From: Paraflavitalea soli
Lineage (GTDB): Bacteria > Bacteroidota > Bacteroidia > Chitinophagales > Chitinophagaceae
Length of the DNA stretch: 64,000 nt
Reading direction: 5' to 3'
Assembly: GCF_003555545.1 (NCBI RefSeq)
Contig: NZ_CP032157.1
Span: 7,444,546-7,508,545 of the forward strand
The notes under the pieces were generated by a model that was not told the origin of the DNA, made no database searches, and saw only the letters and a list, made by a program, of their open reading frames with translations. Positions 6,897 through 60,100 of the stretch are shown in pieces. How positions within the stretch are numbered: the first letter of the stretch is position 1; every line of letters begins with the position of its first letter. A program made the translations under genes and the position numbers.

Positions 6897-6905
6897 CAAT
6901 TAGGC

Positions 6906-7081: not shown

Positions 7082-7663
7082 TTATAAGGCAATCTTTTTC
7101 TGCATCATCATTTTGCGCAGATTGATAAGCCCGTAGCGCATTCTTCCCAGTGCAGTATTGATGCTGCAATTGGTAAGTGATGCGATCTCTTTAAAGCTCA
7201 GGTCTGCGTAATGACGGAGAATAATTACTTCGCGTTGGTCTTCGGGTAAAAGATCCAGCATTTGGCGAACACGGTCATGACTTTGTTTCTTCATCATTTT
7301 CATGTCGGCACCTTCTTCAGTGAAGTTGATTACCTCAAAAATGTCGCGGTCATCGCTCGTACGGATCGATGGGGTACGCTTCACTTTGCGGAAATGATCT
7401 ACGCACAGGTTGTGAGCAATACGCATTGCCCAGGGTAAAAATTTACCTTCCTCTGTGTAACGGCCTCCACGAATTGTGTCGATGATCTTGATGAGAACAT
7501 CCTGGAAAATATCTTCGGCCAGATATTTGTCTTTTACCAGGAATAAGATTGAAGTGTACATCTTGTCCTTATGACGAAGGACTAGGGTCTCAAGCGCATA
7601 AAGGTCTCCATCCTGGAAATCCTGGATGAGTTCATGGTCGGTCTTTTTGCGTAGTAAATTCAT
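7082..7663 (-). CDS. ECF-type RNA polymerase sigma factor
   Basis: A 193-residue group 4 sigma factor. Region 2 (about residues 20-95) reads ALETLVLRHKDKMYTSILFL, then AEDIFQDVLIKI and GKFLPWAMRIAHNLCVDHFR, which are the core-binding and -10 recognition helices. Region 4 (about 130-185) has LLPEDQREVIILRHYADLSF and an HTH, KEIASLTNCSINTALGRMRY. No anti-sigma gene is adjacent, so it may be controlled by its own promoter rather than by a membrane partner. It is divergent from uvrA across a 340-base AT-rich spacer that should hold both promoters. The family is certain; the regulon cannot be told from the sequence. Confidence 0.94.
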   Translation of the reverse strand: MNLLRKKTDHELIQDFQDGDLYALETLVLRHKDKMYTSILFLVKDKYLAEDIFQDVLIKIIDTIRGGRYTEEGKFLPWAMRIAHNLCVDHFRKVKRTPSIRTSDDRDIFEVINFTEEGADMKMMKKQSHDRVRQMLDLLPEDQREVIILRHYADLSFKEIASLTNCSINTALGRMRYGLINLRKMMMQKKIAL

Positions 7664-44499: not shown

Positions 44500-44910
44500 T
44501 TATTTAACCTTGTTCACTACTGTCTCGTCCACATAACTGCGGTTGCGATTGATCTGGTAGATCTCAGACTTGTCATTCTTCTTTGCCTTCACTTCCACAT
44601 TCAACACATTGTCTCCAATTTCTTCCGTATTCAACATGAACTTCTTGGAGATATTGCTTCCTTTTACTTTACCGGAATACAGTACATTACCGTAATCATC
44701 CCTGAAAGTGATAGAAAACTCATCTTCTTCTGTATTGTTGAGGTTCAGCAGGAAAACCGGTTGGTTCTCGTAGTGACCGATAAATTTCAATTCTATAGAA
44801 GAGCTCTTGGGGTTCTTTTCGCCATTGGCTAAAGTGGTGTTGGAAAAGGTTAAGGTTAAAGCAACTACTGCCATCAGCATCATTCCGAAATTCCTCATCT
44901 TGATTTTCAT
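44500..44910 (-). CDS. Secreted protein, left-flank paralog of the ter locus
   Basis: A 136-residue exported protein with signal peptide ending near TTLANG. The mature part reads IELKFIGHYENQPVFLLNLN, EEDEFSITFRDDYGNVLYSG, ISKKFMLN and INRNRSYVDETVVNKVK, and looks like one small beta-sandwich. It aligns without gaps to the 136-residue protein at 55593-56003, with about 100 of 136 residues identical by hand count. Promoter and upstream DNA are shared too. The two copies bracket the ter gene train. I do not recognise the family; a role in the envelope is inferred from the signal peptide. Confidence 0.82.
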   Translation of the reverse strand: MKIKMRNFGMMLMAVVALTLTFSNTTLANGEKNPKSSSIELKFIGHYENQPVFLLNLNNTEEDEFSITFRDDYGNVLYSGKVKGSNISKKFMLNTEEIGDNVLNVEVKAKKNDKSEIYQINRNRSYVDETVVNKVK

Positions 44911-45031
44911 AATTCGTATATTTTATAATTTTATAACCGTTTTTTCAGCGCTTATCCCCCGCTGCGGGATTGAACTTCTTTCAGGTTTCGGGCTTCGCTT
45001 GTCTTAGCCCTCATTCCCTTCGTTCATGATG

Positions 45032-45063
45032 CAAACTTACAGCGACAATCATCGGGCTACAAA
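45032..45063 (-). promoter_or_regulatory. Promoter of the left-flank secreted protein
   Basis: On the minus strand TTTG (45060-45063), 20 bases, then TAAGTTTG (45032-45039) fully match the Bacteroidota consensus. The leader is about 115 bases. The paralog at 55593 has the same element, followed in both by GCATCATGAA. Confidence 0.7.
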
Positions 45064-45120
45064 CCAACAAATGCTTCATTTCAGGATGCTAAACACGTAA
45101 TAGAAATGTTAAAACCCTTT

Positions 45121-45586: not shown

Positions 45587-46162
45587 ATGGCAATTAACTT
45601 ACAGAAAGGCCAGAAAATAGACATAGGCCTTTCCAACATCAGTGTAGGGCTGGGCTGGAATCCAAATGAAGGAACAGGCTCCGCCTTCGACCTGGATGCT
45701 TCTGCATTTATGATCGATGCTTCCAGGCTCATCCCCTCAGAAGGATACTTTGTATTCTATGGCAATACAGATTCTCCCGATGCTGCGGTGCACCATACCG
45801 GTGATGATCCTACCGGCGGCAACTCTGCCGGCGGTGATGATGAAAGCCTCGTAGTAGACCTTACCAAAATAGATCCTGCTATTGCAGAAATACTGTTTGT
45901 GGTCACCATTCATGATGCCGGCGCCCGCAAACAGAATTTTGGCCAGGTCAGGGATTCCTATATCAGGCTCGTGGACAATGCCAGCGGCAACGAGATCGCC
46001 AAATATGAACTGGGGGAAGACTTTTCCATCGAAACAGGCGTGGAATTTGGCCGCCTCTACAAACGCGATGGCAAATGGAAGTTTGAAGCCTCCGGTATCG
46101 GCTATAAAGAAGACCTGGGCTATTTCCTGGGCAAATATTATAAAGGCCAGATCATTAAATGA
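45587..46162 (+). CDS. TerD family protein 1
   Basis: A 191-residue calcium-binding stress protein of the TerD/CABP family, cytoplasmic or membrane-associated. The signature is full: INLQKGQKIDIGLSNISVGL, GLGWNPNEG, FDLDASAFMID, the acidic loop GGDDESLVVDL, ILFVVTIHDAGARKQNFGQV and ELGEDFSIETGVEFGRLY. TerD proteins bind Ca2+ through the acidic loops. This is the first gene of the ter train and is separated from the second TerD by 172 bases that hold a hairpin repeat. Confidence 0.96.
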   Translation: MAINLQKGQKIDIGLSNISVGLGWNPNEGTGSAFDLDASAFMIDASRLIPSEGYFVFYGNTDSPDAAVHHTGDDPTGGNSAGGDDESLVVDLTKIDPAIAEILFVVTIHDAGARKQNFGQVRDSYIRLVDNASGNEIAKYELGEDFSIETGVEFGRLYKRDGKWKFEASGIGYKEDLGYFLGKYYKGQIIK

Positions 46163-46178
46163 TACCAGTTGTCGCCCT

Positions 46179-46247
46179 GGGCCTGTCGAAGGGTGGGTCG
46201 CCCTCTAAGGGCGGCTCACCCTGATCTAAAGGAGCCTGTCGAAGGGC
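46179..46247. repeat. Hairpin repeat copy 3 with flanking CCTGTCGAAGGG direct repeats
   Basis: AGGGTGGGTCGCCC (46190-46203) and GGGCGGCTCACCCT (46209-46222) form the hairpin family member. It is flanked by GGCCTGTCGAAGGG (46180-46193) and GAGCCTGTCGAAGGG (46233-46247). The element lies between the first two TerD genes and may split or tune the operon. Confidence 0.7.
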
Positions 46248-46334
46248 TGTTGGAGGCGACAGCGCATATTTTTCGGTACAAGCAGTACAGGCAGCGATTA
46301 AACCCTAATAAATAAAACAAAAAGAACCTTATTT

Positions 46335-46976
46335 ATGGCAATTAACCTGGTAAAAGGACAAACAATTGACCTTAGAAAAAACGATGGCGGAGCCGATTTT
46401 GACCTTGCAACTGTAACCATCGGCCTCGGATGGGATATCCGCGAGAAAAAAAGCGGATTCCTCGGAAAGCTTCTCGGTGGCAAACAGGAAGACTTTGACC
46501 TCGATGCCGTAGCCTTTTTGCTCGACAGTAATGGTAAAGTAGCCAACCTGGGCGATAAACTCATTGGCGGTGATGTGGTCTTCTACAACAGCCCCAAGCA
46601 CCCTTCCGGCAAAGCATGGTCCACCGGCGATAACAGAACAGGAGCAGGTGATGGCGACGACGAACAACTCGTCTTCAAGCTCGATACCCTCGATGCACGC
46701 TTTGATAAGATCGTATTCGTCGTATCTATTTATCAGGGCCGCCAGAAGAATCAGCACTTTGGTCTCGTGGAAAATGCCTTTATCCGTGCAATAGACACGC
46801 GCGGTAAGGAAATTGCCCGCTTCAACCTGTCGGGCGACGCCACCTTCAATGGCATGTGCTCCATGGTATTTGCTGAAGTATACCGTAAAGACGGCAGCTG
46901 GAAATTCCGCGCCCTGGGTACACCCCACCAGGCCGACTCCTTCGTGGAGATCTTGAAACAATATGTGAACGTATAA
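46335..46976 (+). CDS. TerD family protein 2 (longer variant)
   Basis: A 213-residue TerD protein. It keeps INLVKGQTIDLRK, GLGWDIREK, FDLDAVAFLLD, a double acidic loop TGAGDGDDEQLVFKLD, IVFVVSIYQGRQKNQHFGLV and MVFAEVYRKDGSWKF. It differs from TerD 1 and 3 by an insert (KKSGFLGKLLGGKQE) after GLGW and by NAFIRAIDTRGKE, so it is a distinct paralog group and not a recent copy. The next gene, a vWA protein, starts 16 bases later. Confidence 0.95.
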   Translation: MAINLVKGQTIDLRKNDGGADFDLATVTIGLGWDIREKKSGFLGKLLGGKQEDFDLDAVAFLLDSNGKVANLGDKLIGGDVVFYNSPKHPSGKAWSTGDNRTGAGDGDDEQLVFKLDTLDARFDKIVFVVSIYQGRQKNQHFGLVENAFIRAIDTRGKEIARFNLSGDATFNGMCSMVFAEVYRKDGSWKFRALGTPHQADSFVEILKQYVNV

Positions 46977-46992
46977 ACATCAAAATATTTGT

Positions 46993-47631
46993 ATGAGAAG
47001 ATTACCCGTGTATCTGGTACTTGACACTTCCGGTTCTATGACTGGAGAGCCCATTGAATCCCTGAAGAATGGTGTCCAGGTCCTCATTTCTACCTTGCGC
47101 CAGGATCCGTATGCGCTGGAAACAGCGTATTTAAGCGTGATCACCTTCAGTACGTCGGCTCAACAACTCGTACCCCTTACCGAATTGTCAACGTTCCAGA
47201 TGCCGGATCTTCAGGCTGCAGGCACCACCTCCCTGGGTGAGGCCCTCAACTTACTGGCACAAAGGGTAGAGGTAGAAGTGGCCCGCACCACCGCCGAACA
47301 AAAAGGCGATTGGAAACCCCTCGTATTCATCATGACCGATGGAGAACCTACCGACGATTGGCAGCGGGGGCTTAATGAATACCGCAAACGGAAATTTGGT
47401 ATGGTGATAGCCTGCGCCGCTGGCCGGGCTGCCAACACCAATGTACTCAAGCAGGTTACCGACACCGTGGTGCAATTGGATACCGCCGATTCTTCCACCA
47501 TCAAAGCTTTCTTTAAATGGGTATCTGCTTCCATCAGCACCGGTAGCCAGAAAGTAGAAAGCGGCGGCCAGGAAGTAACCGGCCTCAATGAACTGCCTCC
47601 ACCACCACCAGAAGTAAACGTAGTTGTATAA
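46993..47631 (+). CDS. vWA domain protein (TerY-like) 1
   Basis: A 212-residue von Willebrand A domain protein of the TerY kind. The metal (MIDAS) site is complete: LVLDTSGSMTGEP (DxSxS), AAGTTSLGEAL (Thr) and IMTDGEPTDDW (Asp). After the domain comes a low-complexity linker and a C-terminal tail, ELPPPPPEVNVVV. The second vWA protein (49708) ends in the matching LPPPPPQVNMVI. vWA proteins of ter systems are thought to form complexes with TerD and phospho-signalling partners; the tail may be a docking peptide, which is inferred. Confidence 0.94.
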   Translation: MRRLPVYLVLDTSGSMTGEPIESLKNGVQVLISTLRQDPYALETAYLSVITFSTSAQQLVPLTELSTFQMPDLQAAGTTSLGEALNLLAQRVEVEVARTTAEQKGDWKPLVFIMTDGEPTDDWQRGLNEYRKRKFGMVIACAAGRAANTNVLKQVTDTVVQLDTADSSTIKAFFKWVSASISTGSQKVESGGQEVTGLNELPPPPPEVNVVV

Positions 47632-47632
47632 G

Positions 47633-48349
47633 ATGTTGAAAGAAGCAAAACATATTTCCTTTGATCTGTGGTTGACGTTGATCCGGTCAAATAAGGATTT
47701 TAAGAAAGAAAAAGCAAAGCTCTTCTGTTCTTATTTTAAGATTAGTCATGTAGATGCCGATGCGGTCGTTAAAGTGTTCCGGCAAACCGACCAGTTGGTG
47801 AATCGTATCAACGAAACGGTAGGAAAGAACGTAGACTCCCTGGAAATGTACATGATCGCACTTGATAAGCTCGGTGTCGATATGTCGGGACTGCTGCCAC
47901 CTCATTTGGAAGAATACTACACCCTGTCCGAGCAGTTATTCTTTCAATACCCGGCGCAGCCGCTGCATGAAGAGATTGTACCCCTGCTGGCTGCCTTGAA
48001 AGACAGGGGGCATACCATCAATATCACCAGCAACACCGGTTATATCAAGGGCCGTACCCTGCGCAGGCTCATGGAAGATACCGGCATAGCCCGGTACATG
48101 GACTTCCAGGTATATTCAGATGAAGTGTCGGCTTCCAAACCCTCACCCATCATCTTTGAACACATGTACCGGCAGGCAAAGGAGTTGTATCCCGCCGGTT
48201 TATCCAAACAGCACATCGTGCACATTGGCGATAACAGTCTTACCGATGTAGGAGGGGCAAAGGATTTTGGGATCAATGCTTTTCTCATCAATGATCAAAG
48301 CATGACCTTAAAAAACATAGAGGATGAGCTCAGTGTACTCGTTGCATAA
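47633..48349 (+). CDS. HAD superfamily hydrolase-like protein of the ter locus
   Basis: A 238-residue protein with a HAD phosphatase core: motif I ISFDLWLTLIRS, motif II ITSNTG, Lys of motif III in SASKPSPIIFE and motif IV HIGDNSLTDVGGAKDFG. In motif I the nucleophile Asp is present but the second Asp (general acid) is Trp (D-L-W), so the usual phosphomonoesterase chemistry may be changed, as in dehalogenase-type HADs. It starts one base after the vWA stop and overlaps the PRTase-like gene by 26 bases. HAD plus PRTase pairs are known companions of ter genes. Confidence 0.9.
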   Translation: MLKEAKHISFDLWLTLIRSNKDFKKEKAKLFCSYFKISHVDADAVVKVFRQTDQLVNRINETVGKNVDSLEMYMIALDKLGVDMSGLLPPHLEEYYTLSEQLFFQYPAQPLHEEIVPLLAALKDRGHTINITSNTGYIKGRTLRRLMEDTGIARYMDFQVYSDEVSASKPSPIIFEHMYRQAKELYPAGLSKQHIVHIGDNSLTDVGGAKDFGINAFLINDQSMTLKNIEDELSVLVA

Positions 48350-49211
48350 GATAATGGGGGTCGATGCCTTTACGTTCAACCCTGCTGATTATAGCCGCTT
48401 CAAATTTGGAGATGGCCATATAGCTGAATCATTTGGCGAAGCACTCGCCCATGGATTCCTGGCGCAGCATGGCGAAGCATTAAAGGCCGGCAAACAGCTG
48501 GTCATATTGCCTAGCCCTTATTTTGCCATCCCTACCGCTTCTTATGCCATGGCAGGAGCTTTTAAGAAAACCATCAACCGTTTTTTAGCCGTCAATCGCT
48601 TACCTGTAGCAGAAGAAGCCAAGATCCATCGTTATAAGACCTATAGCCTGGATTACGGGGAACTGGATGCCGACAGCAGGCTCAACCTTATTCTCAACGA
48701 TAAGTACCACCTGGACAGTCAATTCCTGCGGGGTAAATGCCTGATCTTTATCGATGATATCAAGATCACCGGCAGTCATGAGCTCGTGATCCGCAACCTG
48801 CTGAAACAATTTGCCTTGGAAGAAGAGGTTGCTTACTTCCTCTACTTTGCTCAACTCGATGGTAAGAATATCCATCCCAGGATCGAAAATGACCTTAACT
48901 ACAGTTTTGTAAAATCGGTTCATGACCTGGGCAGCATTATCAATTCGGGCAATTTTAAGGTCAATACCCGTATTGTCAAATACATTCTCAACGCGGAGTT
49001 TGCCGACTTCGAAACCTTTATTTCAAAGCAATCCGCTTTGTTTTGTGAACAACTTACCGATCTGGCCATCAGCAATGGCTACCATGAAATGGAGGAATAC
49101 AATAAGAACTTTCTCCAATTGTTAACAATCACCCATCAAAATCATCACATATGCCTATCAACTTACAAAAAGGACAACGCGCCAACCTTGACCTCCCCAA
49201 ATTTACCATAG
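48324..49211 (+). CDS. Phosphoribosyltransferase-like protein of the ter locus
   Basis: A 295-residue protein with a type I PRTase core. The PRPP loop is CLIFIDDIKITGSHE (Asp-Asp then Thr-Gly), preceded by a LVILPSPYFAIPTASYAM strand-loop. Start at ATG 48324 overlaps the HAD gene; an ATG at 48354 is possible. The last 20 codons overlap the third TerD gene by 61 bases in another frame, a long overlap that suggests tight co-translation. PRTase and HAD neighbours in ter operons have been proposed to make or process a nucleotide-like small molecule; that is literature knowledge plus inference. Confidence 0.85.
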   Translation: MSSVYSLHKIMGVDAFTFNPADYSRFKFGDGHIAESFGEALAHGFLAQHGEALKAGKQLVILPSPYFAIPTASYAMAGAFKKTINRFLAVNRLPVAEEAKIHRYKTYSLDYGELDADSRLNLILNDKYHLDSQFLRGKCLIFIDDIKITGSHELVIRNLLKQFALEEEVAYFLYFAQLDGKNIHPRIENDLNYSFVKSVHDLGSIINSGNFKVNTRIVKYILNAEFADFETFISKQSALFCEQLTDLAISNGYHEMEEYNKNFLQLLTITHQNHHICLSTYKKDNAPTLTSPNLP

Positions 49212-49705
49212 GCCTCGGCTGGGATACCAATGAAGCTCAAACAGGGCAGGGATTCGACCTCGATGCCTCTGTCTTCATTCTCGGCGAGAACAGGAAACTC
49301 CTGGCCGATGAGTACTTTGTTTTTTACAACAACCTCAAATCTCCCGATGGTGCTGTAAAGCATTCAGGCGATAATACCACCGGCGATGGTGATGGCGATG
49401 ATGAGACCATCGAGATCGACCTGTCTAATATTAACCCAGGTGCTAAAGAGATCTGCGTGGTAGTTACCATCCATGAAGCACCGGCTCGCAAACAGAATTT
49501 TGGCCAGGTAAGGAATTCTTTCATTCGCGTATTCAATGCCGCCACCAACGAAGAGATCATGAAGTATGAGCTGGGAGAAGACTTCTCTATTGAAACGGCT
49601 GTTGAATTTGGCCGCATCTATAAAAAAGACGAGAACTGGAAATTTGAAGCAGTAGGTATTGGCCACAGCGGCGGCCTCGAACAGTTTTTAGGTAAATACA
49701 ATTAA
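49151..49705 (+). CDS. TerD family protein 3
   Basis: A 184-residue TerD protein close to TerD 1. It has INLQKGQRANLDLPKFTIGL, GLGWDTNEA, FDLDASVFILG, the acidic loop GDGDGDDETIEIDL, ICVVVTIHEAPARKQNFGQV and ELGEDFSIETAVEFGRIY. It starts inside the 3' end of the PRTase-like gene and is followed two bases later by the second vWA gene, so the TerD-vWA gene pair of 46335-47631 is repeated here. Confidence 0.96.
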   Translation: MPINLQKGQRANLDLPKFTIGLGWDTNEAQTGQGFDLDASVFILGENRKLLADEYFVFYNNLKSPDGAVKHSGDNTTGDGDGDDETIEIDLSNINPGAKEICVVVTIHEAPARKQNFGQVRNSFIRVFNAATNEEIMKYELGEDFSIETAVEFGRIYKKDENWKFEAVGIGHSGGLEQFLGKYN

Positions 49706-49707
49706 TT

Positions 49708-50343
49708 ATGAGAAGACTGCCGGTTTATTTATTGCTCGATACTTCCGGCTCCATGAAAGGAGAGCCCATTGAAGCCGTAAAGAATGGTCTTGAATCACTC
49801 ATTGGGTTCTTGCGACAGGACCCCTTTGCCCTGGAGTCTGTGCACCTTTCCATCATCACCTTCGATCGGGAAGTCACCAACATCCTTCCCCTCAAAGACC
49901 TGGAAAGCCTCATTCTGCCCGAGATCACTACGCCCGATTCAGGGCCTACCCACCTGGGGCAGGCGCTGGAAATGCTCTGTACCCTGGTGGATAGCGAGGT
50001 ATTGAAAAGCACACCTGACCAGAAAGGAGATTGGATGCCCCTCTTGTTTATCATGACAGATGGAAAGCCCAGCGACCTCCAGAAGTACCGCGAAATGATA
50101 CCCGAAGTGAAGAAGCGGCATTTTGGCGAGATCGTAGCCTGTGCGGCGGGTCCCAAGGTCGATGACCAGTTGCTCAAAGAGCTCACCCATATCGTGGTGC
50201 ACCTCGACACGGCCGACAGCTCTACCATCAAATCATTCTTTAAATGGGTTTCAGCGTCCGTAAGTACTGGCAACAGAAGTATGGGCGCCGGCGGCGATGT
50301 GGTCTTACCTCCGCCCCCTCCCCAGGTGAATATGGTCATTTAA
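49708..50343 (+). CDS. vWA domain protein (TerY-like) 2
   Basis: A 211-residue vWA protein paralogous to the one at 46993. MIDAS residues are in LLLDTSGSMKGEP, SGPTHLGQAL and IMTDGKPSDLQ. It ends with the same proline tail, VLPPPPPQVNMVI. Both proteins share HLDTADSSTIKSFFKWVSAS-like DNA and protein stretches, so a TerD-vWA unit was probably duplicated in this locus. It is followed by a 123-base spacer, the largest break in the second half of the operon. Confidence 0.94.
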   Translation: MRRLPVYLLLDTSGSMKGEPIEAVKNGLESLIGFLRQDPFALESVHLSIITFDREVTNILPLKDLESLILPEITTPDSGPTHLGQALEMLCTLVDSEVLKSTPDQKGDWMPLLFIMTDGKPSDLQKYREMIPEVKKRHFGEIVACAAGPKVDDQLLKELTHIVVHLDTADSSTIKSFFKWVSASVSTGNRSMGAGGDVVLPPPPPQVNMVI

Positions 50344-50399
50344 TGTCGCTGTGATCCAGGTGTGCAGTTAAGTAAAATAAGGAAAGCATAATATCAGCA

Positions 50400-50430
50400 T
50401 TGCCGATTGTCGACTGCCGATTACCGACTG
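50400..50430. repeat. GCCGATT/CGACTG short direct repeats
   Basis: TGCCGATTGTCGACTG is followed at once by CCGATTACCGACTG. Each half repeats a CCGATT-x-x-CGACTG phrase. It lies in the 123-base spacer inside the ter train, before the YggT-like gene. Confidence 0.5.
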
Positions 50431-50466
50431 ATGATCCGCCTTCTGAAGAACAATTAACAACAAAGT

Positions 50467-50727
50467 ATGTATTTCATCATATGCATGCTCCTCAATATTT
50501 TGATCATAGGCCTCTTCCTGTATTCAAAACTATTGCCCTATAAAGACAGGTTAGACAATCGTTACAAAGGCACATTTGACTTTTTCAGCAAATTGTTTAA
50601 CCCCATGTTGAATTTCCTCCGGGGAGTCATCAAACCCTTCCAGGTAGGCAGCGGACTTGCTGTAGACATGTCACAGATCGTCCTGCTCATTCTATTATTA
50701 CTTTTATTAGGCATTGGCCGGTTTTAA
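50467..50727 (+). CDS. Small YggT-like membrane protein in the ter locus
   Basis: An 86-residue protein with two membrane helices (about 2-20 and 66-84). The segment between has LFNPMLNFLRGVIKPF, then GLAVDMSQIVLLILLLLLL, which matches one YggT repeat (PxLxPxRxxxPxxxxxDxSPxxxxxxL). Full YggT proteins hold two such repeats; this has one. Its place between vWA genes suggests a membrane anchor for the complex, which is inferred. Confidence 0.75.
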   Translation: MYFIICMLLNILIIGLFLYSKLLPYKDRLDNRYKGTFDFFSKLFNPMLNFLRGVIKPFQVGSGLAVDMSQIVLLILLLLLLGIGRF

Positions 50728-50762
50728 ACCTAACCTTTAAAATAAACCTAAACCTCCTTGCT

Positions 50763-51815
50763 ATGCGCAGATTACCGGTATACTTTTTAATAGATGTTTC
50801 AGAGTCAATGGTGGGCGATCAAATGCCCTATGTAGAAGAAGGACTGGCCTCCATCATTAAAGACCTGCGATCTGATCCCTATGCGCTGGAAACAGCCTGG
50901 GTATCCATCATCGTCTTTGCCGGGAAAACGAAACGCATTGTTCCATTAACCGAATTGACTTCCTTTTATCCCCCACGCATTCCCATTGGGGGTGGTACTT
51001 CCCTGGGTGAAGCCCTCGAATTCCTCATGCACGATATCGACACCAATGTGGTAAAGAGTACACCTGATACCAAGGGCGATTGGAAACCCATCATCTTTTT
51101 GTTTACCGATGGAGCCCCCACCGACAACCCCACACCGGCTGTTACAAAGTGGATCAACCAATACAAAAAGAAAGCGTCCATCGTGGCCATTGCATTGGGC
51201 GATAATACCGATACCGCCGTGCTGGGCCAGCTTACCAATGATGTGCTGCTGGTGAAGAACCTGGCACCGGAGTCTTACAAATCATTCTTTAAATGGGTTA
51301 CTGCTTCTATCAAGACCACCAGCATGAGTGTGTCTGAAAGCAATATAGACGGCCCCCAACTGGCTAAGCTGGATGACGCTTACCTCACTAAGGTAGAGCC
51401 TCCTGCCACACCCTCTTCCAAAGTCATCGACAATAATTTTGCCGTCTTCCTGTCCAAATGCCAGGCCACCAAAAAGCCCTACCTCATTAAATACAAACGC
51501 AATATTACCCCCTCCAACATAGAAGGGCTTTCACTGGAAACCCAATTCTTTAAACTCCAGGGATCCTTTCCCGTTGATGATACCTATTTTCAGTTGAGTG
51601 ACAATACCCCCACCAACCAAAAGATCAGTTCAGGCGAATTGGTAGGCTTTCCCCATTGTCCCTGCTGCGGTAATCAATACGGCTTTAGTACCTGTGCTTG
51701 TGGCGGTATCATGTGTACCGGCGACGAAGAAGTCAGTACCTGCCCCTGGTGCAATACCCAGGCTAAATTTGGTTTTTCATCCGGGCATCATGATATAAAC
51801 CGTTCGAGAGGATAA
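50763..51815 (+). CDS. vWA domain protein (TerY) 3 with C-terminal zinc ribbon
   Basis: A 350-residue protein. The N-terminal vWA domain has FLIDVSESMVGDQ, GGGTSLGEALEF and LFTDGAPTDNP for metal binding. About residues 215-290 form an unassigned domain. The end is a Cys-rich zinc module, CPCCGNQYGFSTCACGG then MCTGDEEVSTCPWCNTQ, with CxxC pairs at both sides (TerY-C type). Unlike the other two vWA proteins it has no proline tail. It directly precedes the PP2C and kinase genes, and the kinase also ends in a zinc ribbon. Confidence 0.93.
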   Translation: MRRLPVYFLIDVSESMVGDQMPYVEEGLASIIKDLRSDPYALETAWVSIIVFAGKTKRIVPLTELTSFYPPRIPIGGGTSLGEALEFLMHDIDTNVVKSTPDTKGDWKPIIFLFTDGAPTDNPTPAVTKWINQYKKKASIVAIALGDNTDTAVLGQLTNDVLLVKNLAPESYKSFFKWVTASIKTTSMSVSESNIDGPQLAKLDDAYLTKVEPPATPSSKVIDNNFAVFLSKCQATKKPYLIKYKRNITPSNIEGLSLETQFFKLQGSFPVDDTYFQLSDNTPTNQKISSGELVGFPHCPCCGNQYGFSTCACGGIMCTGDEEVSTCPWCNTQAKFGFSSGHHDINRSRG

Positions 51816-51843
51816 CAACTATTTTCATTAACCCAATTATTCT

Positions 51844-53037
51844 GTGGACAAGATCGTATTTCCCAACGCCAAAGAAAAAGAAGCTTACTCCTATGCCATT
51901 CAATGGGGAAAGTTTGCTCTATCCGATATTGGCGAACATCATTTTGAAGGACTCGAAGCCATTGGGCTAAGCTATGACCCGGCAACGGGTACCGTACAGG
52001 GTATTCCTTCCACACCCGGCGATGCAGACATAACCTTGCATTATAAACCATTAGACAGCCATACAGAGCAGTTGCTCACCAGGCCCGTACACCTCTTTGT
52101 GAATTTTGATCCCAGGAGCTTATGGACCGAACAGGAGCCGCCTCTGGAAGCCCCTTATCAAAAGTCCCACACCGACAGCGTGATGGACATTACCGGCGCC
52201 AAAACCATGATTGCAGCCAGCAAGCGTGGCCGCTCCCATGCCCGGGAAGGCAAATTCAGGGATGATGATTTTGATGTGATGTACCGGTCTGATACCGGTT
52301 GGTATGTTATTGCCGTGGCAGATGGCGCCGGCTCAGCCAAGTTCTCCCGCGAAGGTTCCCGCATTGTATGCAATACCGTAGTAGAACACCTGTCCCTATC
52401 CGCTACCGGCAACAAACTGGATGAGCTCGAAGCCCTGATCGTACAGCTGGAGGCTAATCCCGATGATGCCAGCCGCAAAGCCATTGGCGATACCTTGTAC
52501 AATACCCTGGGCAATGCTGTGCTCCTGGCTTATAAGAACATTGCCAAAGAAGCAGAAGCTTCCCAGAACCTGGTAAAGGATTATGCTACCACCTTGCTCA
52601 CCACTGTATGCCGCCAATACGGCGATAAATGGTTCATTGGTGCTTTTTGGGTAGGCGATGGGGGAGTGGGCATCTACAAAAAAGGAGAAGCCCCAAAAAT
52701 ACTGGGTGAGACCGATAGCGGCGAATACTCCGGCCAAACCAGGTTTCTCACCATGCCGGAAGTCTTTGAAGCAGCTTCCTTCTACAAGCGCATACGCTTC
52801 CAGTTGGTAGACCATTTCGATGCCCTGGTGCTCATGACCGATGGTATTACTGATGCCTGGTTCCACACCGATGCCAATCTCTTCAAAGCAGAGAAATGGG
52901 ACGAGCTGTTCCAGGAAATGCAAAAGGAAGTAAATCTTTCGAGAGATAATGAAAATGCCCATAACCAGTTATTACATTGGTTGGATTTCTGGGTAAAAGG
53001 CGAATACGACGACCGAACAATTGCAATACTTTTTTAA
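51844..53037 (+). CDS. PP2C phosphatase with N-terminal Ig-like domain
   Basis: A 397-residue Ser/Thr phosphatase. The catalytic part (about 120-397) has the PP2C metal sites AVADGAGSAKFSREGS, FWVGDGGVGIY, LVLMTDGITDAW and GEYDDRTIAIL. The N-terminal ~95 residues are unusual: GLSYDPATGTVQGIPSTPGD resembles the He_PIG/cadherin-like strands normally seen in surface proteins, yet there is no signal peptide. Start is GTG 51844. The kinase gene follows after two bases, so phosphatase and kinase are an opposed pair under one control. Confidence 0.92.
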   Translation: MDKIVFPNAKEKEAYSYAIQWGKFALSDIGEHHFEGLEAIGLSYDPATGTVQGIPSTPGDADITLHYKPLDSHTEQLLTRPVHLFVNFDPRSLWTEQEPPLEAPYQKSHTDSVMDITGAKTMIAASKRGRSHAREGKFRDDDFDVMYRSDTGWYVIAVADGAGSAKFSREGSRIVCNTVVEHLSLSATGNKLDELEALIVQLEANPDDASRKAIGDTLYNTLGNAVLLAYKNIAKEAEASQNLVKDYATTLLTTVCRQYGDKWFIGAFWVGDGGVGIYKKGEAPKILGETDSGEYSGQTRFLTMPEVFEAASFYKRIRFQLVDHFDALVLMTDGITDAWFHTDANLFKAEKWDELFQEMQKEVNLSRDNENAHNQLLHWLDFWVKGEYDDRTIAILF

Positions 53038-53039
53038 TT

Positions 53040-54536
53040 ATGGCAAACACCATCAAAATAAAGGCGGCAGACGGCTCAGACGTAGAGTTTGTGAATGACA
53101 TGATTGGCCAGGGCGGCATGAAAGATGTTTACTTCAGCCCTGATAAATCTTATGTAGTAGCCTTCTTCAGGGATAAACAGGATGCGGTGGCCAAGGATCG
53201 TCTCCTCACCATTACCGGCACCTTTTATGACCGCATCTTTAAACAGGCCGGCGGCGATTATTGGAAAGACCTCTATTGCTGGCCCACCAAAGTAGTAGAA
53301 TGGAATGGACGCCTCGGCATTGTAGCCCCCACCTATCAGAAACATTTCTTCTTTCAGACCGGATCGCGCAACAATGATTTCCTGCAGATCAAAGGCAAGG
53401 AAAAAGAAGGCAAATGGTTTGCCAGCGCTTTTCACCAGAATAAAAACCTCGACCCTTCAGAGAAAGGCGATTGGTATAAATATTTCCTCATTGGCATTAC
53501 CATCAGCCGCGGCGTAAAACGTATGCATGCTGCCGGACTGGCTCACTCCGATCTTTCTTACAAGAATGTATTGATAGATCCTGTCACTGGCCGGGCTGCC
53601 ATTATTGATATTGACGGGCTGGTGGTGCCCGGCAAATACCCGCCCGATGTGTTGGGTACACCCGATTTTATTGCGCCCGAGGTATTGGCCACCAGGCACC
53701 TGCCCAAGGAAGACAAGAGCAGGAAGTTTCCGGGTATTCCTACCGACAGGCACGCCCTGGCTGTCATGATCTACATGTACCTGCTGCGGCGCCATCCCTT
53801 GCGGGGAGGAAAAGTGCACGATGCAGATGCCCAGAAAGACGAAGAGCTGTCCATGGGCTCCAAAGCATTGTTTATTGAACACCCTACCGATAAGACCAAC
53901 AGGCCCAAACTAAGTCAGGTAAAGCCGAGTTACCTGCCCTGGGCCGATACCGATAAATTGCCTTATACCATTACCGGTCCTTACCTGAAGCAGCTTTTTG
54001 ACAGGGCATTCATCGACGGACTGCACAATCCCGCCATGCGTCCAACAGCCGATGAGTGGGAAAATGCCCTGGTGAGATCAGTTGATCTCATGCAGCCTTG
54101 TCAGAACAAGTCCTGCGAAATGAAATGGTACGTATTTGACAATACCACCGCGCCGAAATGTCCTTTCTGTGGTACGCCTTACCGCGGACAGCTGCCTGTA
54201 CTGAATCTCTATTCTAAAAATCCAAAAGGGATGTTTAGCTTTGAAAATCACAGGCTCATGGTGTACAGCAACCAATACATCTATCAGTGGCATATCAATA
54301 AGAACATTTCACCCAACGAGCGCTTAACAGCCGATCAGAAAAAGCCCGTAGGTTATTTTGTATTCCACAATGATAAATGGGTGCTGGTCAACCAGGCTAT
54401 TCCCGGTTTGAAGGATATGGATACAGACCAGGAAGTTCCAATCGGGCAAATGCTGGAGATAAAAGATGCACAAAAGATCCTCCTGTCTAAAGAAGAGGGC
54501 GGGCGATTGATCATCGTACAAATGGTAAACAATTAA
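53040..54536 (+). CDS. Serine/threonine kinase-like protein with zinc ribbon
   Basis: A 498-residue protein kinase-like protein. It has a glycine loop IGQGGMKDVYF (residues 22-32), a catalytic loop HSDLSYKNVLID (His169-x-Asp171 ... Asn), the metal loop AIIDIDGLVVPG in place of DFG, and GTPDFIAPEV as the APE segment. After the glycine loop, VVAFFRD stands where VAxK is expected, so the usual ATP-binding Lys is not evident. Residues ~370-395 are a zinc ribbon (CQNKSC ... CPFCG), followed by a ~100-residue beta-rich tail. I start at ATG 53040; the frame to 52977 overlaps PP2C and is rejected. Confidence 0.9.
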   Translation: MANTIKIKAADGSDVEFVNDMIGQGGMKDVYFSPDKSYVVAFFRDKQDAVAKDRLLTITGTFYDRIFKQAGGDYWKDLYCWPTKVVEWNGRLGIVAPTYQKHFFFQTGSRNNDFLQIKGKEKEGKWFASAFHQNKNLDPSEKGDWYKYFLIGITISRGVKRMHAAGLAHSDLSYKNVLIDPVTGRAAIIDIDGLVVPGKYPPDVLGTPDFIAPEVLATRHLPKEDKSRKFPGIPTDRHALAVMIYMYLLRRHPLRGGKVHDADAQKDEELSMGSKALFIEHPTDKTNRPKLSQVKPSYLPWADTDKLPYTITGPYLKQLFDRAFIDGLHNPAMRPTADEWENALVRSVDLMQPCQNKSCEMKWYVFDNTTAPKCPFCGTPYRGQLPVLNLYSKNPKGMFSFENHRLMVYSNQYIYQWHINKNISPNERLTADQKKPVGYFVFHNDKWVLVNQAIPGLKDMDTDQEVPIGQMLEIKDAQKILLSKEEGGRLIIVQMVNN

Positions 54537-54550
54537 AATCAGAATACAAC

Positions 54551-55321
54551 ATGAATCACATGATCCAGGAAATTCTCAACAACCCGTGGGCTGCATTGGC
54601 GGTGGTTGGGAATCTTATTGTTATTGAAAGCTTGCTGTCGGTCGATAATGCCGCTGTACTGGCTACCATGGTGATGGACCTGCCAAAGGAACAAAGAAGC
54701 AGGGCCCTGAAGTATGGCATTATTGGCGCGTATGTTTTCCGCGGTATTTGCTTATTACTCGCTGCATATATCATTACAATATGGTGGCTCAAACCTCTCG
54801 GTGGTTTATACCTCCTTTACCTCGTATGGGATTGGTGGAAAGGCAAACAAACACCCGAAAAAGAAGATGATACCCTCGATAAAAAAAGCAATTGGCTTTA
54901 CAAAGTCACCGTGGGAGCCCTGGGCAACTTCTGGGCAACCGTAGCCCTGGTAGAGATCATGGACCTGGCTTTCTCCATCGACAATGTATTTGCTGCAGTA
55001 GCATTTTCTGATAATATCATACTCATTTGGGTGGGTGTATTTATTGGTATCCTGGCTATGCGGTTTGTGGCACAGGGCTTTGTAAAGCTTATGGAGAAAT
55101 ATGCGTTCCTGGAAGCTGCCGCCTTTATTGTAATTGCCATCTTAGGTATTAAGCTCATGCTTTCTTTGTATGAACATTTCGTACCCGAATCACCATTCAG
55201 TAAGTTCCTGGGTAGCCATGCTGCCGATTGGGGTGTATCTATCCTTACGATCAGCATATTCGTTATCCCCATTATTTATACTACCCTGTTTGGTAAAAAG
55301 AAACAGGAACCAGGCGTATAA
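54551..55321 (+). CDS. TerC family integral membrane protein
   Basis: A 256-residue protein with about seven membrane spans. Both TerC signature acidic helices are present: VIESLLSVDNAAVLATMVMD and MDLAFSIDNVFAAVAFSDN. A charged cytoplasmic loop (GKQTPEKEDDTLDKKS) lies between. TerC proteins are thought to move metal ions and, in ter systems, to hold the TerD/vWA complex at the membrane. It is the last gene of the train, 14 bases after the kinase, and is followed by a repeat-family hairpin that can terminate transcription. Confidence 0.95.
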   Translation: MNHMIQEILNNPWAALAVVGNLIVIESLLSVDNAAVLATMVMDLPKEQRSRALKYGIIGAYVFRGICLLLAAYIITIWWLKPLGGLYLLYLVWDWWKGKQTPEKEDDTLDKKSNWLYKVTVGALGNFWATVALVEIMDLAFSIDNVFAAVAFSDNIILIWVGVFIGILAMRFVAQGFVKLMEKYAFLEAAAFIVIAILGIKLMLSLYEHFVPESPFSKFLGSHAADWGVSILTISIFVIPIIYTTLFGKKKQEPGV

Positions 55322-55363
55322 GAGGAAGTAAGATAAAAATTAAGTAATAGTATATACTAAAAG

Positions 55364-55402
55364 AAAAGGGTGGGTCGCCTTCCAAAGGCGGCTCACCCTT
55401 TT
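55364..55402 (+). terminator. Hairpin repeat copy 4, acting as terC terminator
   Basis: AAAAGGGTGGGTCGCC (55364-55379) pairs with GGCGGCTCACCCTTTT (55387-55402) through 14 Watson-Crick and two G-U pairs, then a T/C-rich tail. It is the longest stem of the family and sits right after the last ter gene. Confidence 0.8.
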
Positions 55403-55437
55403 CCCTTTTACTGATGTTATCACCCTTGTTTGTTTCG

Positions 55438-55592: not shown

Positions 55593-56003
55593 TTATTTGA
55601 TCTTGCTTACTACAGTTTCTTCTACATAGCTACGGTTCCTGTTGATCTTGTACACTTCGGCCTGATTGTTCTTCTTTGCTTTTACTTCCACACTTAATAC
55701 GTTATCGCCAATCTCTTCAATGTTCAACATGAACTTCTTCGAAATGCTGGTTCCTTTTACTTTACCGCTGTACAGCACATTGCCAAAATCATCACGGAAA
55801 GTGATAGTAAATTCATCTTCTTCTTTGTTGTTCAGGTTCAGTTGGAAAACCGGTTGGTTTTCATAATGACCAATGAACTTCAGTTCTATAGCAGAAGCAA
55901 TTTTTTCTTTTTCGTTGTTTGCCAGCGCGCTGGTAGAGAAAGATAAAGTGAAAGCTACTAAGGCGATTGCCAAAATTCCATAATTCCTCATAATCGTTTT
56001 CAT
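55593..56003 (-). CDS. Secreted protein, right-flank paralog of the ter locus
   Basis: A 136-residue exported protein, the partner of 44500-44910. Start at ATG 56003 gives the same length and a signal peptide ending near SALANN; the frame to 56060 runs into leader DNA. Mature sequence: IELKFIGHYENQPVFQLNLN, EEDEFTITFRDDFGNVLYSG, ISKKFMLN and INRNRSYVEETVVSKIK. Most changes against the left copy are conservative (Ser/Thr, Asp/Glu, Tyr/Phe), which shows both are under selection. Both point leftward and have their own promoter and terminator. Function unknown. Confidence 0.82.
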   Translation of the reverse strand: MKTIMRNYGILAIALVAFTLSFSTSALANNEKEKIASAIELKFIGHYENQPVFQLNLNNKEEDEFTITFRDDFGNVLYSGKVKGTSISKKFMLNIEEIGDNVLSVEVKAKKNNQAEVYKINRNRSYVEETVVSKIK

Positions 56004-56148
56004 AATGTATATTTTAAAAGTTTTTAAAACAGTGCTGTAAGCTTCGTATGGGATGGGCAATCGGGCAGGCAGGCAATGTAGAAGAAAAAGTAGGAGTTCG
56101 TTACTCCTGTAAACAACACCAGGATGGTGTGTTCTTTATTTCATGATG

Positions 56149-57104: not shown

Positions 57105-60100
57105 ATGGCTTCAGCATCAGGATTTATTCACCCTTTATTTTCATTAAGGGAAACACGTTGTAAGAGATTATTAACTGTGTTGTTTTGCATGCTTGTGTGT
57201 ACCCTCGGGTTCCACACAGGTGTTTCGGCATTTGCACCAGGCGCAGGTCACCCGCCAGGCGTGCCCGACCTTACACACCCTGATTCTAAGTTGACCATCG
57301 TAAAGAACAACTCTGTTGCCAACAACATCGACCAGAACATCGTAAAAGCCCATGTGGTAGATGAATTTGGTAATCCCGTAGCCGGTGTTGATATCGTGAT
57401 CGTATCCTCCAGTGGAGGATTTACACCCATTTATACCACCAACGCCAGCGGGGATGCCAATGTACCATTTCCCAGTCTGATCGTTGGTACTGTATCCATT
57501 CAGGCTTATGTTAATGGAGATCCTTTTATTCACGGCAGCCCAGCCGTTACTTATTTTGTGGCAGCGCCACCTACCGTTAATACACCTACGACCAGGTTAT
57601 CCGTATTAACGACCAATGCCATTGCCAACAACAGCGCTACCAATAGCGTACGCGCACATATTACCGACGCATATGGCCATCCCATTGCCGGTCAAACCAT
57701 CGCATTTTCCATTGCCTCCGGAATCGCCAGTTTTGTGGGGCCTTCCTCACTGACAACCGATGCCAACGGTAATGCCGACATATCATTGATCAGTACCATC
57801 GCAGGTAATGTAAATATTACTGCGACCATGAACGGTATTAATATCCCGAATGGTAGCCCTGCTACCGTAACCTTTGTGGCCGACGTTCCGCAAACCAATA
57901 ATCCCCTCACCGCATTGAGCGTTGTTACCAACAATGCTGTCGCCAATGGTATTGCAACCAACAGCGTAAAAGCCCATGTGGTAGATGCCAACGGCAATAT
58001 CGTTGCCAACCAGCCAGTCGTATTCACCATTTTCAGTGGTACAGCTAATTTTGTGGGTTCCACTACTGTAAATACCGATGCCAGTGGCAATGCCGTTATC
58101 GCACTCAACAGTACCGTTGCCGGAAATGTAAAAATTACAGCCAGGGTCAATGGTGTCTTTATTATTTATGGCAGCCCCGCCAATGTGACCTTTACCGCCG
58201 GTCCTCCTGATGTAACTGCTGCCAGCACTGGCTTACTTGTTATCACCAATAATGCCATAGCCAATGGCGCCGCCACCAATAGCGTGAGAGCCCGTATCAG
58301 GGATATCAACGGTAATGCTGTAGCCAATGCTACCGTTGTATTCAATATCCTGAGCGGTACCGGCACCATTGTGGGTAGCAGTACCGTTACTACCAATGCA
58401 AGCGGATTTGCCGATATCAATATTACCAGCCTGGTAGCCGGAAATGTGAGTATTACTGCCACCGTGAATGGCGTACCCCTTGTAAATGGAAGCCCTGCTG
58501 TAGTGAGATTTGTGGCTGATGCACCCGCTGTTGCCAATCCGGGTACTGCCCTTAGCGTAGTGACCAACAATGCCCTGGCCAATGGTGCAGCCACCAACAG
58601 GGTAAAAGCACATATTGTTGATGCCAATGGCAACCCCGTAGCCAATGCAACCATTGTATTTACGATCGCCAGCGGTACCGCCAACTTTGCTATCCCGGCT
58701 TCCACCACCACCAATGCCAGTGGGGATGCCTTCGTTAATCTCAACAGCAACCTGGCGGGGAATGTAACTATTACAGCCACCGTCAATGGCGTGGCCATTG
58801 TCAATGGCAGTCCCCTAACCATTACATTCGTGGCCGATGCGCCCGCTGTCAACAACCCGGCTACTGCACTCAGTGTAGTGACCAACAATGCCGTGGCCAA
58901 TAATACAGCTACAAATAGTGTAAAAGCACATATTGTAGATGCCAGTGGCAACCCCGTTCCCAACGCCACCGTCGTATTCAATATCTTCAGTGGTACCGCC
59001 ACTTTTGCCAGCCCTGCTACCGTAACTACCAATGCCAGCGGCGATGCCATTGTTACACTTAAGAGTAATGTGGTAGGATCGGTGAGAATAACAGCTACTG
59101 TAAATGGCGTTACCATCCTCAATGGCAGCCCGGCCATTGTAGTTTTTGTGGTAGATGTGCCATCTGTAACCAATCCGGCTACCGCTTTAAGCGTAGTCAC
59201 CAACAATGCCGTGGCCAATAATATTGCCACCAATAGTGTAAAGGCACATATTGTAGATGCCGGCGGCAACCCTGTTCCCAATGCAACCATTGTATTCACC
59301 ATAGCCACTGGAACGGCCACCTTCGCCAGCCCCGCTACCGTTACTACCAACGCCAGCGGCGATGCCGTGGTAACCCTGAAGAGCACCGTAGCCGGTTCTG
59401 TTACCATCACAGCTACCGTCAATGGTACCCCCATTACCAATGGAAGTCCTGCCACCGTCATCTTTGTGGCAGATGTACCTTCCATCGCCAATCCGGCCAC
59501 TGCCCTCAGTGTAGTACAAAATGATGCGTTGGCGAATAATACAGCTACCAATAGTGTGAAGGCCCATATAGCAGACGCCCAGGGCAACCCGGTGGCCAAT
59601 GCTACCGTGCTGTTCTATATATACAGTGGTACCGCTACTTTCGCCAGTCCCGCTTCCGTAACCACCGATGCGAATGGTAATGCTACCGTTACCTTGAAAA
59701 GCAATGTGGTAGGATCCGTAAATATTACCGCTACTGTCAATGGCACCGTCATTCTTAATGGTAGTCCGGCCATCGTTCGCTTTGTGGTGGACGTACCGGC
59801 AGTAACCAACCCGGCTACCGCCCTCAGTGTAGTCACCAACAATGCCATAGCCAACGGTACTGCTACCAACAGCGTAAAAGCACACATCGTTGATGCTAAC
59901 GGTAATCCTGTTCCCAACGCCACCATCGTATTTACCATAGCCAGCGGCGCAGCCAACTTCGCCAGCCCGGCCTCCGTTACCACCAACGCCAGCGGCGACG
60001 CCGTGGTAACCCTCAACAGTACCATTGTTGGTTCCGTTGATATCACCGCTACGGTCAATGGTACACCCATTGTCAATGGTAGTCCCGCCACCGTCAACTT

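Follow-up and report, generated by a model that had tools for sequence, protein, structure and literature searches.

Gene content of the locus

In the 64,000-nucleotide window analyzed here, from the genome of Paraflavitalea soli, twelve ORFs lie on the + strand at positions 45,587–55,321, as given in the first-pass annotation, which had described them as a Ter-type phospho-signaling locus. This assignment was borne out by the Pfam domain content (Table 1) and by the recurring gene order. Nine of the 11 junctions overlap or span ≤ 35 bp when the kinase is begun at the ATG at 53,040, in agreement with the tight spacing noted earlier; with the same kinase start, the values in order are +172, +16, −8, −26, −61, +2, +123, +35, +28, +2, and +14 bp. 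The −8 junction rests on the TTG start of the HAD gene, and an ATG nine bases downstream would change it to +1. The order TerD-vWA does occur twice (46,335–47,631 and 49,151–50,343), and the three TerD proteins of the locus are the only ones found in the host genome.

Table 1. Genes and other features of the locus, with positions in the window.
Feature	Position	Strand	Description
terD1	45587..46162	+	TerD domain protein, 191 aa; PF02342 E 1.7e-64
inverted repeat, second copy	46191..46221	+	between terD1 and terD2
terD2	46335..46976	+	TerD domain protein, 213 aa; PF02342 E 2.9e-54
vWA1 (TerY-like)	46993..47631	+	PF00092 E 6.4e-15; C-terminal tail LPPPPPEVNVVV; vWA1 clade
HAD-family phosphatase-like protein	47624..48349	+	241 aa from TTG; PF00702 E 5.1e-13
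PRTase_3 (ComF-like phosphoribosyltransferase)	48324..49211	+	295 aa; PF15610 E 1.7e-83
terD3	49151..49705	+	TerD domain protein, 184 aa; PF02342 E 6.9e-71
vWA2 (TerY-like)	49708..50343	+	PF00092 E 1.6e-13; tail LPPPPPQVNMVI
YggT-like small membrane protein	50467..50727	+	86 aa; PF02325 E 7e-6; position conserved
vWA3 with TerY_C metal-binding domain	50763..51815	+	350 aa; PF15616 E 9.2e-45, PF00092 E 6.9e-13
PP2C-type phosphatase	51844..53037	+	397 aa, GTG start; PF13672 (PP2C_2) E 1.1e-42; N-terminal region conserved
Ser/Thr kinase	53040..54536	+	PF00069 (Pkinase) E 5.7e-11; longer TTG start at 52977 possible
terC	54551..55321	+	TerC-family membrane protein, 256 aa; PF03741 E 5.7e-51
stem-loop, terminator-like	55363..55403	+	after terC; includes copy of genome-wide inverted repeat

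TerY-P/Ter systems were reportedly defined by Anantharaman et al. in 2012. The twelve genes represent the known Ter system in a Bacteroidota form, with TerD/TerC and HAD-PRTase_3 joined by the TerY-P triad, i.e., adjacent genes for the TerY_C-vWA protein, the PP2C, and the kinase. No nuclease or known toxin, and no ATP-grasp, StiP, HpcH-type lyase, or second PRTase, was matched by Pfam among the twelve genes. TerB was found neither among them nor in the relatives with the exact order (single-sequence TerB profile), and profiles of StiP, HpcH, and PRT2 gave no match in the exact-order loci. The stem-loop after terC is weak evidence of an operon end because an inverted repeat present in 150 exact copies across the genome has one copy within it, and the stem-loop was set aside as a terminator marking the end of an operon. 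Matches to sigma-70-type promoters numbered 20, against 16.7 in shuffled sequences (sd 4.0), showing no excess.

Conservation of gene order and the origin of the vWA pair

A contig search with the kinase alignment gave at least 560 relatives, of which 80 were kept; the same search with the PRTase as the query gave none. Gene order was counted over 99 loci, 94 of which hold the kinase. The comparison of gene order that the first-pass annotation had suggested showed all twelve families in identical order in 12 retrieved loci that belong to 11 other genomes, and this recurrence makes the arrangement more than chance. The PP2C is immediately upstream of the kinase in all 94 kinase-holding loci. 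The HAD gene follows the kinase in 13 of these 94 loci and is not fixed in the middle of the locus, so that its link to the switch proposed below is loose. In two loci, an Na/Ca exchanger replaces TerC after the kinase, which fits an output in cation transport.

Among four genomes of the same genus, three hold the whole locus in the same order. In the fourth (G001, 100% complete), terC and both flanks are kept at the orthologous site, and nowhere in this genome is there a TerD, PRTase_3, TerY_C, or Ter kinase. Because the site keeps terC but lacks all eleven genes that precede it, the eleven were gained or lost as a block. The genus offers a natural pair, with terC alone on one side and the whole block on the other.

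The MIDAS motif DxSxS of vWA1 is intact as read from the sequence. C-terminal tails resembling LPPPPPEVNIVV were found in 159 of 165 short vWAs and in none of 1,439 other ORFs. In the vWA tree (midpoint-rooted, with the clade chosen as the best separating one and a node support of 0.41), first and second vWAs separate 75 to 75 with no exceptions; judged by this split, vWA1 and vWA2 are both older than the lineages sampled. The repeated TerD-vWA units had been regarded as an expansion, but the 75/75 split does not support tandem duplication of such a unit, and this reading was rejected. Enterobacterial plasmids are already known to carry the order vWA-TerD-vWA-TerY_C, under the name terY-CYXYW (PMC12054061).

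Two further parts, the YggT-like protein and the N-terminal region of the PP2C, had been singled out as lying outside standard descriptions, which the comparison supports in part; the YggT-like protein is a recurrent member. YggT-like genes occur in 32 of the 99 loci, in 31 of them directly upstream of the TerY_C-vWA or PP2C gene. The PF02325 match is borderline (26.8 bits, with the cut-off at 27); the model matched in 4 of 59 genomes, always inside this locus, and missed the locus copy of one genome (G010). The term “half-YggT” is not apt: the protein has roughly the length of a single YGGT repeat, and single-repeat YggT/YlmG proteins are common. In the PP2C, whose conserved motifs include DGAGS, TDG, and DDRT, the N-terminal region has residues that do not vary across the 27 aligned sequences and is thus general, not special to the locus. 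The Ig domain ascribed to it found little support in Pfam (He_PIG in 1 of 27 sequences, E 0.066) and was set aside; we claim only a conserved N-terminal region.

An unusual kinase with a predicted FHA-fold domain

The kinase consists of an N-lobe, a zinc ribbon, and then a C-terminal domain of predicted FHA fold (about residues 382–498). The zinc-ribbon cysteines C354, C359, C374, and C377 are invariant in 35 kinase sequences. A lysine in the glycine loop, K28, is kept in 94/94 kinases, and the beta-3 lysine is missing: with beta-3 modelled at 38–43, position 42 is always F/I and position 43 always F/Y (94/94). The residue just after this strand, R44, is R/K in 94/94 and is the only basic candidate for the replaced lysine; beta-3 may have been placed one position off, and the lysine could have been substituted by this arginine, not shifted. 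D171, N176, and D190 are kept in all 94 sequences and H169 and D192 in 93, the conservation of HSDLSY being partly due to the selection of sequences, since it was one of two search patterns. Given these residues and K28, the kinase is probably active. No mid-helix Glu that could pair with K28 is invariant in the alpha-C helix, where position 53 is D/E in 91/94, and the first glycine of the GxGxxKxVY pattern is kept in 69 of the 94 Ter kinases.

The eukaryotic WNK kinases likewise have their lysine in the glycine loop and lack one in beta-3 (PMC1821047). The two loops, GQGGMKDVY in the Ter kinase and GRGSFKTVY in WNK, share the pattern GxGxxKxVY, whereas the usual alpha-C Glu is not evident in the Ter kinase. 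Kinship with WNK was not supported: hhalign aligned the C-lobe only (residues 152–219), leaving no detectable N-lobe alignment, and no WNK was among the best 50 of 1,971 PDB matches to the whole kinase (Foldseek), which were mixed eukaryotic kinases. We regard the lysine shift as a likeness at the level of the motif, most likely convergent.

The C-terminal domain was modelled by AlphaFold2 with a mean pLDDT of 91.5. The best match in the fold search was the FHA domain 6hc0 (E 6.1e-4, probability 1.00, rmsd 5.9); three matches had E ≤ 0.001, the rmsd of the FHA-fold matches was 5–8 Å, and the 50 PDB matches listed are FHA domains. We thus predict a distant FHA fold, seen by fold comparison only: an assignment by sequence was rejected, as PF00498 matched none of the 35 kinases at E up to 1. 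In our reading of the kinase alignment against the FHA consensus, the usual phosphothreonine-binding residues are not conserved, and together with the missing Pfam match this makes phosphopeptide reading doubtful. No match with E ≤ 0.001 was obtained for this domain in a viral structure library.

Known Ter systems, proposed function, and alternatives

The locus shares all three parts of the TerY-P triad, including the invariant zinc-ribbon cysteines. It differs in its setting: the triad here is part of a TerD/HAD/PRTase_3/TerC operon that also includes two short vWAs and a YggT-like protein but no restriction or DNA-processing genes. The FHA-fold domain behind the zinc ribbon is not part of the TerY-P description in the accessible portion of PMC11090510, according to which the kinase of the anti-phage TerY-P-like module of Gao et al. 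(2020) has a C-terminal OB fold, in contrast to the FHA fold modelled here. With the plasmid ter cluster (terY-CYXYW with terZABCDEF), the locus has in common the vWA-TerD-vWA-TerY_C order and the vWA tails. The plasmid clusters examined have TerB, StiP, HpcH, ATP-grasp, and another PRTase, none of which is among the twelve genes, whereas the locus has PRTase_3 plus HAD.

The side of the locus comprising the metabolite genes and TerC can be separated as a module, since HAD, PRTase_3, TerD, TelA, and TerC are present without vWA, PP2C, or kinase in three related loci (L013–L015) and two tailed phages of the Stephanstirmvirinae carry PRTase_3 with a weakly HAD-like gene and either TerC or TelA nearby. 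TelA accompanies the TerD-HAD-PRTase_3 side in several relatives. A PRTase_3 relative was found in 154 of 50,697 phage records. In the two Stephanstirmvirinae phages, a weakly HAD-like gene precedes PRTase_3 as in the locus, with TerC nearby in one and TelA and a TerD-like gene in the other; unlike in the locus, none of the genes annotated in the two stretches codes for a vWA protein, PP2C, or kinase. In one of these phages PRTase_3 is followed by a Macro-domain gene, and a phage protein near TelA showed no similarity to u321 of the relative L031.

With moderate confidence, we propose that the locus acts as an inner-membrane switch, worked by reversible phosphorylation, which adjusts tolerance to metal or envelope stress. 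A metal-sensing phosphorylation switch has been proposed for TerY-P (PMC11090510), and in another species ter genes are induced by Te, Zn, and Mn, and deletion of terC lowers tolerance to tellurite and zinc (PMC12054061). The activities, substrates, docking partner, metal, and metabolite that we infer would be as follows. The kinase, with its zinc ribbon and FHA-fold domain, and the PP2C would set the phosphorylation state of the vWA and TerD proteins, the TerY_C-vWA and the zinc ribbon being the putative metal-responsive parts. The two short vWAs would act as a fixed pair, whose proline-rich C-terminal tails may dock onto a shared partner in a complex. The YggT-like and TerC proteins would form the membrane seat, and TerC may move or hand on a divalent metal; TerC proteins are reported to metalate exported enzymes (PMC10550928). 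HAD and PRTase_3 may make or remove a nucleotide-like small molecule of the TerD/TerC side.

A role in anti-phage defense, in which infection would shift metal or nucleotide pools and the kinase/PP2C switch would sense this and arrest the cell or block the phage, is a tentative possibility. TerY-P-like modules are described both as stand-alone defense systems and as parts of CoCoNuTs (PMC11090510), and deletion of terC in K. pneumoniae lowers resistance to phage as well as to tellurite and zinc (PMC12054061). The patchy distribution (10 of 395 Bacteroidota genomes have TerY_C, the present one included), the PRTase_3 relatives in phages, and a relative whose kinase lies ~9 kb from SIR2 and Piwi genes on a Hymenobacter plasmid point the same way. 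Against this, the twelve genes include no nuclease or known toxin, PADLOC (10 of the 12 proteins) returned weak matches to other systems only (ShosT for the PRTase; PD-T4-6 and mads_6 for the kinase), and the order is unchanged in three of the four same-genus genomes, with no parts swapped.

It is unlikely that the locus serves mainly in metalloid or metal resistance, with TerC and TerD exporting or sequestering metal or protecting the membrane and the kinase and PP2C adjusting this. In favor of that reading are TerC and the three TerD, the presence of TelA in several relatives, and, in another species, the terC phenotype and the induction of ter genes by Te, Zn, and Mn (PMC12054061). However, TerD and TerC account for only four of the twelve genes, TerB was found neither among the twelve nor in the exact-order relatives, and G001 keeps terC without TerD, kinase, TerY_C, or PRTase_3, which argues for transport independent of them. 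Very improbable is a set of separate neighboring units that share only their place (TerD1; TerD2-vWA1-HAD-PRTase-TerD3-vWA2; YggT-TerY_C-PP2C-kinase-TerC). The two longer gaps (172 and 123 bp), the inverted repeat with a nearby terminator-like site between terD1 and terD2, and the occurrence of TerD-HAD-PRTase_3-TelA-TerC and TerY-P parts apart in other genomes would agree with it, but the eleven genes are missing together at the G001 site, the gene order of the locus is retained in the 11 other genomes, and a repeat with 150 exact copies does not specially mark a boundary.

Within the proposed switch, the displaced kinase lysine, the FHA-fold domain, and the tails of the short vWAs look like three new and testable features, and no paper joining them was found in the open-access literature. 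The features are small, mutable targets: one kinase lysine, one predicted FHA-fold domain, and one twelve-residue tail on two vWAs. As a long shot, the Ter kinase could be a convergent counterpart of WNK, in which the lysine in the glycine loop would free the beta-3 site to bind an ion, so that the kinase would sense ions and, with the PP2C, gate a TerC-type cation transporter, while a twelve-residue LPPPPPEVNIVV-like tail code would let the fixed vWA pair plug into the complex. In that case, more than two thousand sequenced plasmids would encode an ion-gated Ser/Thr kinase, now often labelled as lipopolysaccharide kinase. Ter loci are common on enterobacterial plasmids; relatives of the kinase occur in 2,347 plasmid records (60–80% identity among the matches listed, mostly ~63%), and the TerY_C-vWA protein has matches in 2,323 of 72,556 such records.

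Gene content and conservation of the locus

The Ter locus is filled by twelve ORFs, which follow one another in the order TerD, TerD, vWA, HAD, PRTase_3, TerD, vWA, YGGT-like, TerY_C-bearing vWA, PP2C_2, protein kinase and TerC. All of the twelve same-strand genes named in the first-pass annotation were therefore recovered, and the tight packing that it described is borne out: 9 of the 11 junctions overlap or span ≤ 35 bp, the two wider ones being 172 bp (terD1/terD2) and 123 bp (vWA2/YggT). The host genome is a single 8.44 Mb contig, and the three TerD genes of the locus are the only ones found there.

To place the locus among its relatives, 99 loci were annotated with profiles built from the window and its relatives. 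Genome draws supplied 17 of these loci and plasmids 2, and the other 80 were the best of at least 560 relatives from a kinase-alignment scan. The kinase was found in 94 of the 99, a count biased toward kinase-bearing loci because most of the set came from that scan, and PP2C lay immediately 5′ of the kinase in all 94. The order of the twelve genes, which the first-pass annotation proposed to compare among relatives, was identical in 12 loci from 11 genomes (locus L042 repeats L017). Chitinophaga strains, for example C. filiformis or C. pinensis (L077, L079, L081), share this order. Within 250 bp after the kinase, we found TerC in 27 of the 94 loci, HAD in 13, TerY_C-vWA in 3, and a Na/Ca exchanger, TerD or a second kinase match in 2 each; a recognized gene lay farther away in 4, and none was recognized or the contig ended in 41. 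The exchanger loci, L035 and L097, carry it directly 3′ of the kinase, where other loci have TerC (PF01699 in L035).

Counting the host genome, PRTase_3 was present in 9 of 59 genomes, and among 395 Bacteroidota genomes TerY_C was present in 10 and the full-length kinase in 11; six more weak kinase matches each covered short parts only. Relative to the same-genus genomes G002, G003 and G004, HAD (71–73% identical), PRTase_3 (76–85%), PP2C (75–83%) and YggT (76–83%) are more divergent than TerD, vWA1, vWA2 and the kinase, which are 90–96% identical among same-genus genomes. The locus as a whole is of a known kind, and its arrangement is a conserved Bacteroidota variant; its fresh points lie in the kinase, with its lysine and predicted FHA-fold domain, in the tails of the vWAs, and in a block that is present or absent beside a fixed terC.

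The paired vWA genes and the variably present block

The first-pass annotation had noted that a TerD-vWA pair occurs twice, and this arrangement stands. In a tree of the window and 74 loci holding exactly two short vWAs, the first copies fell into one clade in 75 of 75 cases and the second copies outside it in 75 of 75, which rules out a new duplication and points to an old arrangement of two distinct vWAs. The short vWAs end in the consensus LPPPP[PAS]E[VIL][NHQ][IV][VI][VIL]. PPPP lies within the last 16 residues in 159 of 165 unique sequences, with a near variant in four of the other six. The tail was carried by 0 of 1,439 other ORFs (≥ 120 aa) of the same loci, and all seven further VWA_2 proteins identified in the host genome lack it; it also occurs on vWAs of Escherichia coli and Azospirillum plasmid clusters. 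TerY_C-vWA has no such tail, which makes TerY_C, PP2C or the kinase a candidate partner.

The YggT gene is present in 32 of the 99 loci, in 31 of which it lies directly 5′ of TerY_C-vWA or PP2C; its upstream neighbor in those 31 is a short vWA or, in three, a small gene behind one. PF02325 matched in 4 of 59 genomes, every time inside a Ter locus (it missed the copy in the locus of genome G010), and in 7 of 14 control genomes. In this family, YggT therefore looks like a Ter component rather than a housekeeping gene.

In a blastn comparison with the same-genus genome G001 (100% complete), the orthologous site was found to retain the tRNA flank, the upstream gene and ∼100 bp matching window positions 45013–45114. 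About 250 bp past this match comes terC (79.5% DNA identity; TerC identity confirmed), then the downstream flank; in the window, 9.4 kb separate the match from terC. No PRTase_3, TerD, Ter kinase or TerY_C was found in the whole G001 genome, and G002, G003 and G004 each hold three TerD, one kinase and one TerY_C. Therefore, the eleven genes come or go together while terC remains; loss in G001 would be the simpler reading.

The locus is bracketed by paralogous small, probably secreted proteins (∼75% DNA identity across 440 bp), and the same pair flanks the lone terC in G001. An imperfect inverted repeat, GGGTGGGTCGCC ... GGCGGCTCACCC, whose RNA arms pair with two G-U pairs, also occurs here. 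A somewhat shorter version is repeated exactly 150 times across the genome (110 forward, 40 reverse; 0 for a reversed control pattern). In the copies listed, bases at the inner stem end change in pairs; it is a dispersed element, REP-like or terminator-like. The large ORF after the locus contains many similar repeats of putative Ig-like type.

Coordinates of the Ter locus and neighboring elements in the window
Feature	Positions	Strand	Remark
Paralogous small protein, upstream	44500-44910	-	
Ter locus, twelve ORFs	45587-55321	+	
Imperfect inverted repeat, copy 1	46191-46221		
Imperfect inverted repeat, copy 2	55368-55398		
Paralogous small protein, downstream	55593-56060	-	
2161-aa ORF	57105-63590		after Ter locus

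The kinase: lysine position and C-terminal domain

We aligned 94 unique full-length kinases (93 from loci and that of the window; 96 matches before filtering by length and identity). Four residues, K28 in the glycine loop, D171, N176 and D190, were invariant, and H169 and D192 occurred in 93 of the 94, counts biased by both search patterns, one of which contained K28 and the other HSDLSY. The bias on K28 can be removed: in 60 of the 94, position 24 is neither Q nor R, so these sequences cannot match the K28-containing pattern, and K28 is invariant there too. The beta-3 strand is mostly VV[AG][FI][FY], without lysine; in an AlphaFold2 model (mean pLDDT 88.4), K28 lies where beta-2 begins, and residues 38–43 form beta-3. 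R44 is a possible stand-in for the absent beta-3 lysine, and no acidic partner of K28 is evident in alpha-C. The glycine-loop motif GQGGMKDVY matches GRGSFKTVY of WNK1. According to Kannan et al. (2007, PMC1821047), WNK stands alone among functional ePK families in lacking the beta-3 lysine, its lysine sitting in the glycine loop, and a comparable shift, to arginine, occurs in the CAK-chloro subfamily.

A domain of ∼117 residues lies C-terminal to the zinc ribbon and was modeled alone with a mean pLDDT of 91.5. In a fold search its best E was 6.1e-4 (probability 1.00), with three matches at E ≤ 0.001, rmsd of 5–8 Å and TM by query length of 0.43–0.61. The 50 PDB matches listed were FHA, some by title; among them, Pml1, CEP170, GarA, OdhI, APLF, Rad53 and spliceosome chains are presumed by us to be FHA. 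Pfam gave no FHA match in 35 kinases, and conservation is not apparent at the residues that usually bind phosphothreonine, so we call the domain a predicted FHA fold and regard phosphopeptide reading as doubtful. Among 27 PP2C proteins scanned, one bears a Pfam FHA domain (E 2.5e-5), so FHA-type domains exist on the phosphatase side of the putative switch too.

Kinase relatives were found in 2,347 of 72,556 plasmid records (2,313 at 60–80% identity), mostly from Klebsiella, Escherichia, Salmonella and Enterobacter; 28 of the 40 matches listed were named “lipopolysaccharide kinase InaA family protein.” The phage collection gave a single partial match (30% identity across 49% of the query). Given this abundance on plasmids, the lysine and FHA-fold features bear on a widespread system, not on the window alone.

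Modules, relatives and possible functions

The window locus combines two modules, with HAD-PRTase_3-TerD3 between vWA1 and vWA2. Loci L013–L015 hold HAD, PRTase_3, TerD, TelA and TerC without vWA, PP2C or kinase; conversely, HAD and PRTase_3 are missing from other loci that have the vWA-PP2C-kinase side, and some of these loci are cut at contig edges.

On the best reading, drawn up with reference to PMC11090510, PMC12054061, PMC8115787, PMC1821047, PMC4978471, PMC3710099, PMC7159879 and PMC10550928 and put at about even odds, the kinase and PP2C would respond to metal or stress as a switch acting on a membrane-bound assembly of TerD, vWA and TerC, to which a nucleotide-metabolite pair would be loosely tied. 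That the locus is instead a phage defense system seems rather doubtful, plain metal resistance is unlikely, and a set of unrelated neighboring genes is highly improbable.

Phage records with a PRTase_3 relative number 154. In two phage stretches, a HAD-like gene (below the Pfam cut-off) lies upstream of PRTase_3; one has TerC (by annotation) and a Macro-domain gene near PRTase_3, and the other TelA. In Escherichia phage nepoznato (L173, 151 kb), the weakly HAD-like gene, PRTase_3, the Macro-domain gene and the annotated TerC cluster at 4325–7577, which may point to phages that exploit or counteract the same putative small molecule as the Ter locus. A 100-kb plasmid of Hymenobacter monticola (L169) carries a Ter locus with a kinase 73% identical to that of the window, and SIR2 and Piwi genes lie ∼9 kb 3′ of this kinase.
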